From Salinicoccus halitifaciens (GTDB lineage: Bacteria; Bacillota; Bacilli; Staphylococcales; Salinicoccaceae): 64,000 nucleotides of DNA. The notes under the pieces were generated by a model. The model was not told the origin of the DNA and searched no databases. It saw nothing but the letters and a program-made list of their open reading frames with translations. The number at the start of each line of letters is the position of its first letter. Positions within the stretch are counted from its first letter, which is position 1. The stretch covers positions 248,001 to 312,000 of the forward strand of contig NZ_JAJNCU010000003.1 in NCBI RefSeq assembly GCF_021026095.1, read 5' to 3'. The translations under genes were made by a program, and so were the position numbers. Positions 11,910 through 15,607 of the stretch are shown here, in pieces.

Positions 11910-12089
11910 ATGGCCACCAGGGAAACGGGAAACGCAAAGCACAGGATCAACTATGTAGGCATCTGCATAGTCACAGGCACGGCTTTTGGCATCTCACTCG
12001 GCGGCATGTTCGACAGTACGATACTCGGCATGGTGACGGGTTCCGGACTCGGCACTGTAGTCGGTTATCTCTACAACAGTAAAAACTGA
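11910..12089 (+). CDS. 59-residue glycine-zipper membrane protein
   Basis: The short ORF starts with ATG at 11910, preceded by GGGAGGT at the right distance, and reads MATRETGNAKHRINYVG. One hydrophobic glycine-rich segment follows with the pattern G-T-A-F-G-I-S-L-G-G-M-F and later GMVTGSGLGTVVGYLY. Glycines spaced every four residues suggest a glycine-zipper helix pair in the membrane. A terminator follows within 12 nt, supporting a monocistronic expressed gene. It resembles the 69-residue protein at 15398-15607 in architecture. The function is not recognised. It is the first GC-rich gene after the AT-rich cluster. Confidence 0.7.
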   Translation: MATRETGNAKHRINYVGICIVTGTAFGISLGGMFDSTILGMVTGSGLGTVVGYLYNSKN

Positions 12090-12156: not shown

Positions 12157-13053
12157 CTATTTATCCCTCACCGTCCTGAATCCCATGTTCCCGGTCGAGC
12201 TGTCCACCGTGTTGGACGATCTTGCTGCGACCCTGTAGCGGTTACAGTAGGAGTGATGGCAGAGGTATGAGCCGCCCCTTATGGCCTTCGTCTGCCGGGT
12301 CTCATCAAACCAGTTGCCGCACCACTCCCATACGTTGCCTGAAGTGTTGTAAAGCCCGTAGCCGTTCGGTTCGAAAGAATCGACCGGTGCTGTGCCGATA
12401 TAGCCGTCATCTTTTGTGTTATCCATCGGGAACTCGCCCTGCCAGATGTTGCACATATGTCTGCCCGGTTCGAGGTCGTTCCCCCAGGGGAACCGCTTCT
12501 GTTCAAGCCCGCCGCGTGCGGCATACTCCCACTCCGCCTCAGTCGGCAGCCGTCCTCCGGCCCACTTGGCATAGCTTTCCGCGTCATTCCATGATACATG
12601 GACGACCGGGTGATCCATGATGTCTTCAATAGTGGAGGATGGGCCGTAGGGGTGTTTCCACGACGCGCCTTCCACCGCAAGCCACCACGGGGTGTTCGGC
12701 AGCTGCCCCTTCACATGTTTATCATCCGCTTCCGCAAGCAGCATATGGAATACGAACGACCATCCGAACCGCTCCGCATCGGTTACGTAGCCCGTCTCAT
12801 CGATGAAGGCCTTGAATTTCCGGTTGCTCACCTGGTACTTGTCGATATGGAAGCCTGCGACTTCGACCTCCCTTACCGGGCCTTCGTTGTCCCCCTCGTT
12901 CGCATCCGCATCTTCCGAACCCATGAGGAAGGTGCCGCCCGGGATGAATGTCATATCTTCCGTATTTTGGTTTTCTTTATCTTTAATTTCCTGTATCTCC
13001 CTGATTTCATCCGCACCCCTCGACGGGGCGCAGCAGCTTTTATGTTCTTTCAT
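12157..13053 (-). CDS. Formylglycine-generating enzyme family protein (sulfatase maturase)
   Basis: The 298-residue protein has the SUMF1/FGE fold: FIPGGTFLMGSEDADANEG at the start, then VSWNDAESYAKWAGGRLPTEAEWEYAARGG, GNVWEWCGNW and the C-terminal GGSYLCHHSYCNRYRVAAR. The two cysteines in LCHHSYC (C-x4-C) are the copper/thiol pair used by true FGEs to oxidise a sulfatase cysteine to formylglycine, so this is likely a real maturase and not just an FGE-fold protein. The start at 13053 has GAGGAGG six bases upstream; the GTG at 13068 overlaps that site and is rejected. It is divergent from a sulfatase with a cysteine-type site, 111 nt away, which is its obvious client. An N-terminal KSCCAPSR element resembles that of other bacterial FGEs. 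Confidence 0.93.
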   Translation of the reverse strand: MKEHKSCCAPSRGADEIREIQEIKDKENQNTEDMTFIPGGTFLMGSEDADANEGDNEGPVREVEVAGFHIDKYQVSNRKFKAFIDETGYVTDAERFGWSFVFHMLLAEADDKHVKGQLPNTPWWLAVEGASWKHPYGPSSTIEDIMDHPVVHVSWNDAESYAKWAGGRLPTEAEWEYAARGGLEQKRFPWGNDLEPGRHMCNIWQGEFPMDNTKDDGYIGTAPVDSFEPNGYGLYNTSGNVWEWCGNWFDETRQTKAIRGGSYLCHHSYCNRYRVAARSSNTVDSSTGNMGFRTVRDK

Positions 13054-13164
13054 GCTTTTCCTCCTCACCCGTTATAAGGGGTTCTGCTTCATAAGATTTC
13101 CAGCTTCCTTTATAATCATAATTGTATGATAACAGAATATATCAAAAATTTAAGGAGTGTAGAC

Positions 13165-14781
13165 ATGTCTGAAAAGAAACCGAACATAGTACTGATTTTT
13201 GCGGATGATCTCGGGTATGGGGACGTCTCCTGTTTCAATGAAAATTCAAAAGTGAAGACGAAGCATCTGGAGGGCCTGGCGGAGTCCGGGATGATCTTCA
13301 CGAATACGCACGCAACCTCCGCCCTGTGTACGCCGTCCCGCTACGGCCTGCTCACCGGGCGCTACAACTGGCGTTCAAAGCTGAAGAGCTACGTGCTGCC
13401 CGGCGATTCGATGCCTTTGATCGAGGAGGACCGCCGGACGCTTGCGCATATGCTCAAAGACGAAGGCTACCAGACCGCAGCCATCGGGAAATGGCACCTG
13501 GGGCTCGGATGGCAGCTGACGGATGAGCCGGACTTTGAGAAATACGGCCTCGATCCTGAAGATTTCCCGCGCATGGAGAAGCGCCACGGACGGGCCGGCA
13601 TATTCGACATCCGGGCGGGGCTTGCGGATTTTGAAGGTCTCGACATCGACTACTCCAAGCCGATCACTTTCGGCCCGAATGAGCTCGGATTCGATTATTT
13701 CTTCGGCACACCGGCTTCCCTCGACCAGCCGCCGTTCGTCTACATCGAAAACGACCGTGTGACTGCGGAACCGAATGGCACGACGGGCGTGTCGAACCTC
13801 GACCGCCTCGGTCCGAACAACCAGACGCAGTGGCAGAACGGCGTCATCGCACCGGACTTCGTCCATGAAGAGGTGCCGGACGTCATGCAGGAAAAGGCGC
13901 TTGAGACGATCGATAAATTCACTGAGGGTGATGATCCATTCTTCCTCTACTATCCGAACCATCTCGTCCACGGGCCTTTATTGCCGAATAAGGAATTCAA
14001 AGGGAAATCCGGCATCGGCTTATACGGCGACTTCATCCTGCAGCTCGACCACTACGTCGGGGAGATCATCGACAAGCTTAAAGAGAAGGATATATTCGAC
14101 GATACAATCTTCATCTTCACAAGCGATAACGGGGCTTCCGGCGTTGCCGGCTTTGAGGCATTACATGCCAAGGGGCACTACCCGAACCATGTATTCAAGG
14201 GCGCAAAAGGCGATATATGGGAAGGCGGCCACCGGGAGCCGACGATCATCTCATATCCGTCGGCGATCGAGGCAGGCGGGGTGTCGAACCACCTGATCAG
14301 CTTATCCGACCTGTACCGCACGATCGCCGAACTGATCGATGCGGATGTGCCGGATGATGCGGCGGAGGATTCCTACTCACTGTCGCCGATATTCGAAGGC
14401 CGGACGGAGGAGGTCCGGGAGGACGTCGTCCATTCCTCGGCCAACGGCGGGCTCGCCATACGCCGCGGGAAATGGAAGCTCGACCTCGTTGAAGACGGCG
14501 GCGGCATGGAAGTGACGCAGAGGCAGATGCAACGCGGCGAACAGCCTTCCTTCAAGCCGACCGAGCTGTATGACCTGGAAGCGGATATCCGGGAGCAGAA
14601 CAACCTGATTGATGAACATCCGGATTTGGTTGAAGATATGGTCGGCTCGCTTGCAGAATACATCCGCCTCGGCCGTTCGACGCCGGGTGAACCGCAGGAG
14701 AATGAGGGCGGCAACGACTGGCCGCAGTTCGGATGGATCGAAGAGTACAGGCAGTACGTCGATCATTTCCAGTATGACTGA
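13165..14781 (+). CDS. Arylsulfatase-family hydrolase (cysteine-type sulfatase)
   Basis: The 538-residue protein begins KKPNIVLIFADDLGYGD, with the metal-binding Asp pair at residues 14-15, and carries the sulfatase signature CTPSRYGLLTGR with C55 to be converted to formylglycine. Later it shows GKWHLGLGW and FTSDNGA (third metal site). There is no signal peptide, so it appears cytoplasmic. It should hydrolyse sulfate esters to release sulfate. The ATG at 13165 has AAGGAG seven bases upstream; an upstream ATG at 13126 is in frame but lacks a site and would add an unrelated extension. It is divergent from the FGE gene, and a SAM riboswitch follows, hinting at sulfur metabolism in this neighbourhood. 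Substrate unknown. Confidence 0.93.
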   Translation: MSEKKPNIVLIFADDLGYGDVSCFNENSKVKTKHLEGLAESGMIFTNTHATSALCTPSRYGLLTGRYNWRSKLKSYVLPGDSMPLIEEDRRTLAHMLKDEGYQTAAIGKWHLGLGWQLTDEPDFEKYGLDPEDFPRMEKRHGRAGIFDIRAGLADFEGLDIDYSKPITFGPNELGFDYFFGTPASLDQPPFVYIENDRVTAEPNGTTGVSNLDRLGPNNQTQWQNGVIAPDFVHEEVPDVMQEKALETIDKFTEGDDPFFLYYPNHLVHGPLLPNKEFKGKSGIGLYGDFILQLDHYVGEIIDKLKEKDIFDDTIFIFTSDNGASGVAGFEALHAKGHYPNHVFKGAKGDIWEGGHREPTIISYPSAIEAGGVSNHLISLSDLYRTIAELIDADVPDDAAEDSYSLSPIFEGRTEEVREDVVHSSANGGLAIRRGKWKLDLVEDGGGMEVTQRQMQRGEQPSFKPTELYDLEADIREQNNLIDEHPDLVEDMVGSLAEYIRLGRSTPGEPQENEGGNDWPQFGWIEEYRQYVDHFQYD

Positions 14782-14801: not shown

Positions 14802-14830
14802 ATGAAATAATTAAAGCCAGGCAGTATAAT
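14802..14830 (+). promoter_or_regulatory. Promoter for the SAM riboswitch transcript
   Basis: A perfect -10 TATAAT (14825-14830) lies 17 bp after ATGAAA (14802-14807), a weak -35. Transcription would start about 14838, shortly before the riboswitch. Confidence 0.6.
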
Positions 14831-14849
14831 ACAATTAAATAAAATAGTT

Positions 14850-14955
14850 CTCTTATTAAGAGTGAGTGAAGGGACTTGGCCCTGTGAAGCTCCGGCAACA
14901 GCTTGTAAAAGCGATGTGCCAAATCCAACAGTTTCTATAAACTGGATGATAAGAA
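14850..14955 (+). promoter_or_regulatory. SAM-I (S-box) riboswitch aptamer
   Basis: The conserved S-box core is present: AGTGAAGGGACTTGGCCCTG, then TGAAGCTCCGGCAACA, then ATGTGCCAAATCC and the closing GGATGATAAGAAG. P1 pairs TCTTAT (14851-14856) with ATAAGA (14949-14954). The 3' P1 strand TAAGAAG (14950-14956) is also complementary to CTTCTTA (14970-14976) in the left arm of the downstream terminator. That gives the mutually exclusive antiterminator expected of this class: SAM binding stabilises P1 and allows termination. The only gene downstream before the next terminator is a 61-codon ORF. Confidence 0.93.
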
Positions 14956-14965
14956 GTCGTGTTAA

Positions 14966-14999
14966 AGCTCTTCTTAATTCAGGAAGAGCTATTTTATTT
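14966..14999 (+). terminator. Terminator of the SAM riboswitch expression platform
   Basis: AGCTCTTC (14966-14973) pairs with GAAGAGCT (14983-14990), followed by ATTTTATTT. Its left arm overlaps the antiterminator-pairing bases 14970-14976, making it the regulated terminator. Confidence 0.88.
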
Positions 15000-15024
15000 G
15001 AAAAAATAAAAAGGTGGTAATCAA

Positions 15025-15210
15025 ATGAAAAACGTACGCGAACTATTTTCAGAATTGGACGATTGGAAGGCCTACAAACCGGCCAGCACGATGAGCAGCA
15101 TAGCGAAGTCGAATCATATCAGCAGTCTGGAGCGGGAAATCAAAGAGCGCATCGACATTGAAGATTACAAAGATTATATATTATCCAAAGAAGGAAGCCG
15201 GTCGCTTTAG
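15025..15210 (+). CDS. 61-residue protein under SAM riboswitch control
   Basis: The ATG at 15025 has AAGGTGG seven bases upstream. The product begins MKNVRELFSELDDWKAY and contains SSLEREIKERIDIEDYKDYI, a charged, probably helical soluble protein without signal peptide, membrane segment or cysteine. I do not recognise the family. It sits alone between the riboswitch terminator and its own terminator, so the riboswitch controls this gene and nothing else in the transcript. S-box control predicts expression when SAM is low, so a role in methionine, SAM or sulfur balance is inferred, not shown. It could be a genuine small regulator or the remnant of a replaced methionine gene, although the intact start, ribosome-binding site and terminator argue for use. 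Confidence 0.75.
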   Translation: MKNVRELFSELDDWKAYKPASTMSSIAKSNHISSLEREIKERIDIEDYKDYILSKEGSRSL

Positions 15211-15249: not shown

Positions 15250-15296
15250 AACCGGCCTGGACATCTTAAATCAGGATGACCGGGCCGGTTCTTTTA
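15250..15296 (+). terminator. Terminator after the 61-residue ORF
   Basis: AACCGGCC (15250-15257) pairs with GGCCGGTT (15283-15290), with further pairing inside, followed by CTTTTACTG. Confidence 0.8.
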
Positions 15297-15397: not shown

Positions 15398-15607
15398 ATG
15401 GCGAATGAAAAAGATGAACGGCATGAAGATCAGGCAGGCACCGGGGAGGTGGATGCAAAATATCTTGCCATCGGGCTCGCACTCGGTCCTGCTTTCGGAA
15501 TGGTGATCGGCATGCTCGCCGGCAACGTCGGAATAGGGATTTCGCTCGGGATGAGTTTCGGTCTGCTTTTCGGCACGGCGCTTGGCGCAATGAAAAATAA
15601 CAATTGA
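15398..15607 (+). CDS. 69-residue glycine-zipper membrane protein
   Basis: The start at 15398 (MANEKDERHEDQ) follows a purine-rich GGGGATGAGG. The upstream open frame back to 15311 has no plausible ribosome-binding site. A hydrophilic N-terminus of about 25 residues is followed by a glycine-rich segment, IGLALGPAFGMVIGMLAG, then GIGISLGMSFGLLFGTALGA, with G every four residues, suggesting two packed membrane helices. It shares this plan with the 59-residue protein at 11910-12089, so the two may be distant paralogs. It precedes a membrane-anchored coiled-coil gene by 13 nt and probably forms an operon with it. Function unknown; glycine zippers occur in channel-forming, toxin-like and envelope-stress proteins. 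Confidence 0.75.
   Translation: MANEKDERHEDQAGTGEVDAKYLAIGLALGPAFGMVIGMLAGNVGIGISLGMSFGLLFGTALGAMKNNN

Follow-up and report, generated by a model that had tools for sequence, protein, structure and literature searches.

A SAM-I riboswitch with a predicted added helix precedes a conserved small protein of no named family in Salinicoccus and related bacteria

Introduction

In Salinicoccus halitifaciens a SAM-I (S-box) riboswitch stands ahead of a single gene of 61 codons, and all strong matches to the product of this gene within its order lie in S-box transcription units. Regulation by the S-box is well supported from sequence, and the molecular action of the protein is inferred. A riboswitch of this type implies expression at low SAM. 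The product is probably an unrecognised part of the control of methionine and SAM, as inferred from its regulation and context; a factor of this kind had been suggested in the first-pass annotation of the window (the whole stretch of 64,000 nucleotides analysed here). The aptamer itself is of the ordinary SAM-I kind; what is unusual is its target and an added helix, called P0 in the following.

SAM riboswitches mark genes of methionine and SAM metabolism well enough for their targets to serve as a parts list. Of 157 genomes in the order 72 have strong matches, all of which lie in S-box units, and among 261 genomes of a second order 16 carry the protein behind SAM-I; together these offer a strong clue to a component still missing from the picture of methionine/SAM control. 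Because genome searches and dN/dS values agree on it, the arrangement in the window is more than chance.

The riboswitch and its transcription unit

A search with Rfam (cmscan) placed a SAM-I riboswitch (RF00162) at 14850-14955 on the forward strand with 76.7 bits and an E-value of 3e-16, the gathering score being 44.4. The alignment is full length (model positions 1-108), and with Rfam nothing else in the 64-kb window exceeds a gathering score. Together with direct reading this match confirms what had been noticed from the letters alone, namely an aptamer with P1, a terminator and a mutually exclusive antiterminator. The predicted elements are as follows.

14802..14830, + strand: sigma-70-like promoter ATGAAA, 17 nt, TATAAT (consensus scan, 10/12 matches)
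14835..14849, + strand: putative P0 5' strand TTAAATAAAATAGTT, at or near the transcript 5' end (complementarity; covariation over 46 leaders)
14850..14955, + strand: SAM-I (S-box) aptamer including P1, RF00162 (cmscan)
14948-14955, + strand: P1 3' strand, overlapped by the antiterminator 5' strand (direct reading)
14950..14956, + strand: antiterminator 5' strand TAAGAAG, common to P1 (direct reading)
14966..14999, + strand: intrinsic terminator, hairpin AGCTCTTCTT/AGGAAGAGCT at 14966-14990 and U-rich tail ATTTTATTT (direct reading, terminator scan)
14970..14976, + strand: antiterminator 3' strand CTTCTTA, common to the terminator (direct reading, leader alignment, RNAalifold)
14987..15001, + strand: putative P0 3' strand AGCTATTTTATTTGA, base of the terminator 3' arm and U-tract (complementarity, covariation, RNAalifold, duplex energy)
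15011..15017, + strand: ribosome-binding site AAGGTGG, 7 nt upstream of the ATG (direct reading)
15025..15210, + strand: 61-aa ORF with ATG start, product P0001, a predicted helical protein (ORF list, profile search, dN/dS)
15250..15294, + strand: terminator-like hairpin after the ORF, AACCGGCC (15250-15257) with GGCCGGTT (15283-15290), then CTTTT (direct reading)

TAAGAAG and CTTCTTA form a perfect antiterminator of 7 bp which overlaps both the P1 3' strand and the terminator 5' arm (14966-14975). The window leader thereby has the kind of platform expected of a SAM-I riboswitch, in which antiterminator and terminator exclude each other. In an alignment of 46 leaders the antiterminator is nearly invariant with 97.4% of cells paired, and the terminator hairpin has 93.3% of cells paired and no covarying pair. 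P1, terminator and antiterminator give no covariation signal because they are too invariant. This anatomy can be read directly, and the binding of SAM and the direction of switching are inferred.

The promoter and terminator scans are weak if taken alone, with three promoter-like sites against 2.5 expected in the region scanned and four terminators against 2.3 expected by shuffles. A TATAAT-like sequence is present at the equivalent place in most of the first-order leaders displayed; the transcript start in the window is unmapped. The ribosome-binding site, already judged to be good in the first-pass annotation, has counterparts in the homologs, which carry a similar G-rich site ahead of their ATG. 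By direct reading the ORF is, as had been claimed, the sole gene ahead of the next terminator-like hairpin, within which the terminator scan marks a smaller hairpin at 15278-15290. The next ORF beyond it has its likely ATG at 15398 (direct reading).

The source genome (11 contigs, 2.68 Mb) contains 11 SAM-I riboswitches. Judged by reading the proteins, the first genes behind the other ten encode MetK, two MetN-type ABC transporters, two MetY-like PLP enzymes, three LLM-type monooxygenases, a thiolase and an enolase-superfamily enzyme. The small ORF alone among these 11 targets is neither an enzyme nor a transporter.

Distribution within the order

In an initial search covering 33 genomes of the family the ORF turned up in 12, and all 11 copies besides the one in the window were behind SAM-I. 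Among these relatives are Salinicoccus kekensis, Lacicoccus alkaliphilus, Jeotgalicoccus nanhaiensis and J. halotolerans. Widening profiles raised the number in 157 genomes of the order to 62 and then 71 genomes at E <= 0.01, and to 74 at E <= 0.05. Seventy-seven places in 72 genomes match at E <= 2.2e-8, separated by a wide gap from six rows at E >= 0.003. These six (E > 0.001: G058, G022 and the second rows of G072, G101, G136 and G052) are not claimed, and no SAM-I is present near the row of G058 or the second rows of G072 and G101.

All 77 strong matches of the order profile search belong to S-box transcription units, although the S-box played no part in selecting the protein matches. The ORF had been described as the dedicated target of its riboswitch, with the proviso that a lack of conservation behind S-boxes in relatives would refute the suggested role. 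The proviso is answered by the 77 units and by 16 of 20 loci examined in a second order. The description as dedicated holds for 69 of the matches, which lie directly behind a SAM-I over the gathering score (the window and sets of 11, 18, 19, 11 and 9 loci), and fails for seven, which are later genes of S-box operons. The remaining match, in G097 (L129, C17:23733-24032), is a dedicated copy too, but its ORF and S-box have both decayed, and the S-box scores 38.7 bits, less than the gathering score. One of the 69, L055 in G129, has an ORF broken by in-frame stops; it was counted among the S-box units and excluded from the protein profiles and from leader alignments A6 and A8.

SAM-I was found in 155 of the 157 genomes with 1 to 11 copies each, so that a constant association by chance is not plausible. 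Since 85 genomes have no strong match, though all but two of the 157 possess SAM-I, the protein is dispensable.

Two forms of operon are seen, and in both the genes ahead of the small ORF are read as methionine or sulfur genes. In the first the order is SAM-I, metY and small ORF (G087, G108 and G073); G102 has the metY form too, and there the small ORF begins within 10 nt of the metY stop. In the second form (G141, G088 and G130) SAM-I is followed by genes for an LLM monooxygenase, a sodium symporter and a tautomerase and then by the small ORF; G088 and G130 have a dedicated copy in addition. Gene names were given by reading, and G073, G088 and G130 were assigned by clustering with three operons that were read. 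The operon-type loci L117-L122 are weak matches without an S-box within about 1 kb, and the S-box was seen in larger stretches. As these relatives were detected by protein sequence alone, divergent relatives are in S-box units too.

Three further candidates (L028-L030) were dropped: L028 and L030 match within LysR-type regulators, L029 was recognised by a similar short match only, and none of the three has SAM-I. In G101 a short partial copy of the ORF without an S-box (L068) is situated about 6 kb from the intact copy; it was excluded from the profiles. In L051, L052, L054, L056 and L057 matches to the sRNA family sau-13 occur about 1 kb upstream of SAM-I, and from these five loci matching a Staphylococcus sRNA family we infer that genus g14 is Staphylococcus.

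A second order

In a sample of the class the protein was matched in 19 of 398 genomes, of which G401 alone is outside the first order. Among 261 genomes of the order of G401, 21 gave a match at E <= 0.01; 20 of these rows were counted and G571 was left out. Of the 20 loci examined, 16 are directly behind SAM-I, and they are the best 16 (E 2.8e-13 to 7.3e-4). The other four (L191-L194, E from 7.8e-4, without a gap in E-value) were rejected, three being another conserved protein and one junk, and none is behind SAM-I.

Eleven aligned members of the second order comprise 92-95 aa with an extra, helix-rich C-terminal part; a further peculiarity is an early stop in L181. Profile A3, which contains no row of the second order, detects G401 at E 3.8e-5. 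Profile A5, built from the second order only, detects the gene of G053 at E 4.2e-4, and this reverse direction is weak because two long coiled-coil-like frames (G374, G157) score slightly better.

The protein

Ten homologs of the family gave dN/dS values of 0.05-0.23 in the 18 pairs reported, and the sequences of a 19th pair are identical. When all 45 pairs are taken together, the substitutions at codon positions 1, 2 and 3 are 318:305:803. As judged from these sequence comparisons, selection acts on the protein; its translation is inferred. The conserved core follows approximately the motif ELxxLxxWxxYxPxNxxSSMxKxxxIxxxKxxI, and the tails are variable; W14, P19, S24 and S25 of P0001 are among its conserved residues. 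AlphaFold, applied with five sequences, predicts helices at residues 4-16, 22-42 and 45-60 (mean pLDDT 82, pTM 0.59). P0001 has no hydrophobic stretch and, with 11 K/R and 12 D/E by hand count, is not basic, which favours contact with protein over contact with RNA.

The family carries no name in the libraries searched. The first-pass annotation had spoken of an unknown family, and indeed P0001 passes no curated family cut-off in Pfam-A or NCBIfam. The same was found for longer or operon-type members (five in Pfam, three of these in NCBIfam), and for 32 members of profile A2 the best values were E 0.0046 in Pfam and 0.017 in NCBIfam, one member each (cut-offs not shown). A match of one second-order member to the small subunit of exodeoxyribonuclease VII (NF002137, E 0.00065) was discarded with 19.5 bits against a cut-off of 94. 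In PHROGs the best E-value was 0.031, and a search of solved structures by sequence gave nothing usable. Fold searches of the PDB yielded matches such as small helical hairpins commonly produce, both with a first model (Foldseek, best E 2.3) and with a second (VIA, best Z 6.5).

The best viral fold match is A0A6J5MCN7, an uncharacterised protein of 75 aa from an uncultured tailed phage (E 0.033, 36% identity over 55 columns). Against phages, tblastn with one longer member gave a single weak match (E 0.07 over 39 residues) to a small gene of Escherichia phage PhiKM that is flanked by tail genes; with P0001 and the L126 member nothing appeared at E <= 1. Neither one Staphylococcus-type member against plasmids (tblastn) nor profile A1 against viral contigs produced a match. 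A distant phage relative is not excluded.

Helix P0

In the window the nucleotides just 5' of P1 (14835-14849), predicted to be at or near the start of the transcript, are complementary to 14987-15001 over 15 uninterrupted pairs, G-T pairs allowed. Over the 46 leaders of alignments A6 and A8, hand-chosen from the loci then known, 89.1% of P0 cells are paired (13 pairs counted). Cells changed on both sides number 29, against 12.3 +- 2.6 in shuffled alignments (0/500 as high) and 6-21 in slid ones, and P0 scores 0.178 for covariation, where shuffled alignments give 0.077 +- 0.011 and slid ones no more than 0.051. Two measures do not exceed the shuffles, namely pairs changed on both sides (4; 242/500 as high) and pair types (13; 141/500 as high). 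Relatedness among the leaders can inflate the remaining statistics. RNAalifold, run on the 46 leaders, selects six P0 pairs and the antiterminator.

A broader set of 60 leaders consisted of all first-order leaders with an Rfam-placed aptamer in the window and the first four locus sets, and the controls were 40 S-box leaders from ten genomes of one family. With the whole platform offered, a duplex of <= -8 kcal/mol is predicted for 59 of 60 small-ORF leaders in the first order and 15 of 16 in the second, against one of six operon-type leaders and two of the 40 other S-box leaders; P0 is in this sense an extra helix compared with other SAM-I riboswitches. Unbroken runs of at least 12 pairs occur in 46/60, 0/16, 0/6 and 2/40, respectively. 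The longest unbroken run is 8-10 pairs in the second order and 5-13 in the controls, so only the energy of the bulged duplex differs there. On these predictions P0 is clear in the first order and merely an interrupted helix in the second. A cruder control, taking the first TTTT after the aptamer (whereby the real tail may be missed), gave 44/46 against 1/40.

When the window leader is folded up to 14999, the best predicted structure (-49.6 kcal/mol) has the 5' strand on the terminator, and the enforced form with P1 and terminator reaches -44.8 kcal/mol; removal of 14837-14849 makes the latter form the best. If the start of the ORF is included, P1 and the terminator form in the best fold, where the 5' strand is taken up by the ORF start, and for this reason the role of P0 is uncertain. 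Complementarity and covariation are seen in the leaders; from them we infer that P0 may act as a second antiterminator strand. Alternatively it might merely seal or protect the RNA ends. If P0 works as proposed, this would be a transcription riboswitch whose own 5' end serves as a further antiterminator strand, an idea that is testable in vitro.

Proposed action and alternative explanations

We lean towards a single-gene unit repressed by SAM whose helical product would not be an enzyme but would work, through protein contact, as a regulator or adaptor in the methionine/SAM economy. When SAM is plentiful the aptamer would close P1 and transcription would stop at the terminator. At low SAM P1 would open and its 3' strand would pair with the 5' arm of the terminator. 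The P0 strand at the start of the transcript could pair with the base of the terminator 3' arm and the U-tract, so that both sides of the terminator would be engaged and transcription would run on into the small ORF. The 61-aa helical protein, made in a shortage of methionine or SAM, would then, as a 'SAM-sparing' effector, bind and adjust some protein involved in supplying methionine or in using SAM. Its part in the methionine/SAM economy is inferred. Action through protein-protein contact is a guess, for which the best partner candidates are MetY and the YxjG-type core methionine synthase; the protein is small enough for immediate expression, tagging and pull-down. The wider idea, that a SAM-I variant with P0 as second antiterminator has been kept for one gene and that this gene founds a new family of SAM-controlled small regulators in two orders of Bacilli, a 'SAM-sparing' layer over the S-box regulon, can be put forward only tentatively.

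The target itself has no known function, and relatives share S-box operons with metY. The main rival explanation is that the protein is no free regulator and serves a single enzyme of methionine synthesis as its small subunit or activity partner, for instance MetY (O-acetylhomoserine sulfhydrylase) or a YxjG-type core methionine synthase. The ORF follows metY immediately under one S-box in four genomes, and by coordinates a YxjG-type gene is located about 0.5-2 kb downstream of the small ORF in eight genomes, in five of which (L069, L070, L133, L134 and L136) a T-box leader is also found downstream of the ORF. In g14, furthermore, YxjG is present in 31 of 34 genomes with a dedicated ORF (two decayed copies included) and in 11 of 50 without. 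The opposite tendency is seen in family f1, where one S-box-type YxjG subtype occurs in 2 of 12 genomes with the ORF and 14 of 21 without (p 0.01). A clean replacement of one gene by the other seemed to hold in ten genomes and was given up, as the pattern over 157 genomes is mixed with opposite directions in two clades. The co-occurrence counts are not corrected for shared ancestry, and the link to YxjG is kept only as a weak lead. It also speaks against an enzyme partner that most members are alone in their unit and that three operons have neither metY nor YxjG between S-box and ORF. Neighbour genes differ between clades, and not being conserved they indicate no partner. With these differing neighbours and the mixed links to YxjG, a role as partner of one such enzyme appears unlikely to us and the small regulator or adaptor is preferred.

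The number of S-boxes per genome in g14 averages 6.5 with the dedicated gene (its own included) and 4.7 without. Among the YxjG-type genes themselves (L261-L290) those of the 72-96% subtype mostly have an S-box motif upstream. The 51-56% subtype of g12 and g14 has no S-box motif in the 13 loci read; most of these 13 show upstream a sequence that we take to resemble a CodY box.

A second rival gives the main role to the RNA, either the terminated leader or a P0-sealed transcript, which would act as a stable RNA regulator, the protein being of secondary importance. SreA and SreB are SAM riboswitch RNAs which are reported to act in Listeria as regulatory RNAs in trans. In two between-genus genome pairs the platform of the small-ORF leader is 91.5 and 92.9% identical, compared with 56.7-70.7% for the platforms of metK, two metN and metY (seven comparisons), and P0 would join the 5' end to the 3' tail. 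However, antitermination alone could explain such a conserved platform: over 20 between-genus pairs the terminator hairpin and the stretch from hairpin to ATG are each about 89% identical, against an average of 66% for third codon positions. The ORF is, moreover, under purifying selection, and the leaders of the relatives in S-box operons mostly lack P0, so that the protein is retained where the small-ORF leader is absent. An RNA as the principal product is therefore quite improbable.

That the ORF arose by chance, or is what remains, as the first-pass annotation had allowed, of a methionine gene since lost from behind an old S-box, could draw on its small size, the lack of a named family and the two decayed copies in the order (G097, G129), yet conservation in two orders, the constant S-box association and purifying selection (dN/dS about 0.05-0.23) leave this scarcely credible, and it is rejected. 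A leader peptide controlling a downstream gene by attenuation would suit a short ORF early in a transcript, but is rejected just as firmly given the terminator-like hairpin after the ORF, the downstream genes varying between clades and the seven cases in which the ORF is a later operon gene.

Relation to known systems

The window leader agrees with the transcription-terminating riboswitches of the SAM-I class (RF00162) in its full-length aptamer and in the arrangement of P1, antiterminator and terminator. It differs from the usual SAM-I in having a small protein of no named family as sole target. Small starvation-induced regulators of Firmicutes include the Fur-controlled FbpA/B/C and the kinase inhibitor Sda. 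The likeness consists in a tiny protein made upon shortage of one nutrient, or in a helical hairpin of similar size; unlike FbpA/B/C, control is by a SAM riboswitch instead of a repressor protein and P0001 is not basic. Neither FbpA/B/C nor Sda emerged in the family searches.

For a core methionine synthase working with a partner protein there is a precedent, the pair MesD and MesX, and MesX belongs to a different, larger family than the small ORF product. The likeness is confined to the idea of a partner, as there is no evidence of a complex for the small ORF product. Such a synthase with its partner is treated in one article (PMC7857596). In the open-licence literature, as far as the parts available extend (including PMC13340242, PMC6848492, PMC3053349, PMC9686682 and PMC7857596), neither the protein nor a P0-like helix is described. 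One of these sources (PMC13340242) lists three RNAs of Staphylococcus aureus, teg1, teg25 and teg75, as SAM riboswitches.

Genes around the locus and a related S-box

Behind one of the other SAM-I riboswitches of the source genome a thiolase-like gene is found (L003). G015 has an S-box (L231) with a downstream start resembling L003, and no ORF of at least 50 codons begins there within 450 nt.

Immediately 5' of the riboswitch in the window two divergent genes were recognised by protein reading, one for a protein like the formylglycine-generating enzyme (12157-13068, - strand) and one for a sulfatase (13126-14781, + strand). It is possible that they form a sulfate-scavenging pair. The sulfatase locus is flanked by two similar small, glycine-rich, membrane-like proteins, encoded at 15398-15607 and 11910-12089 (protein reading).
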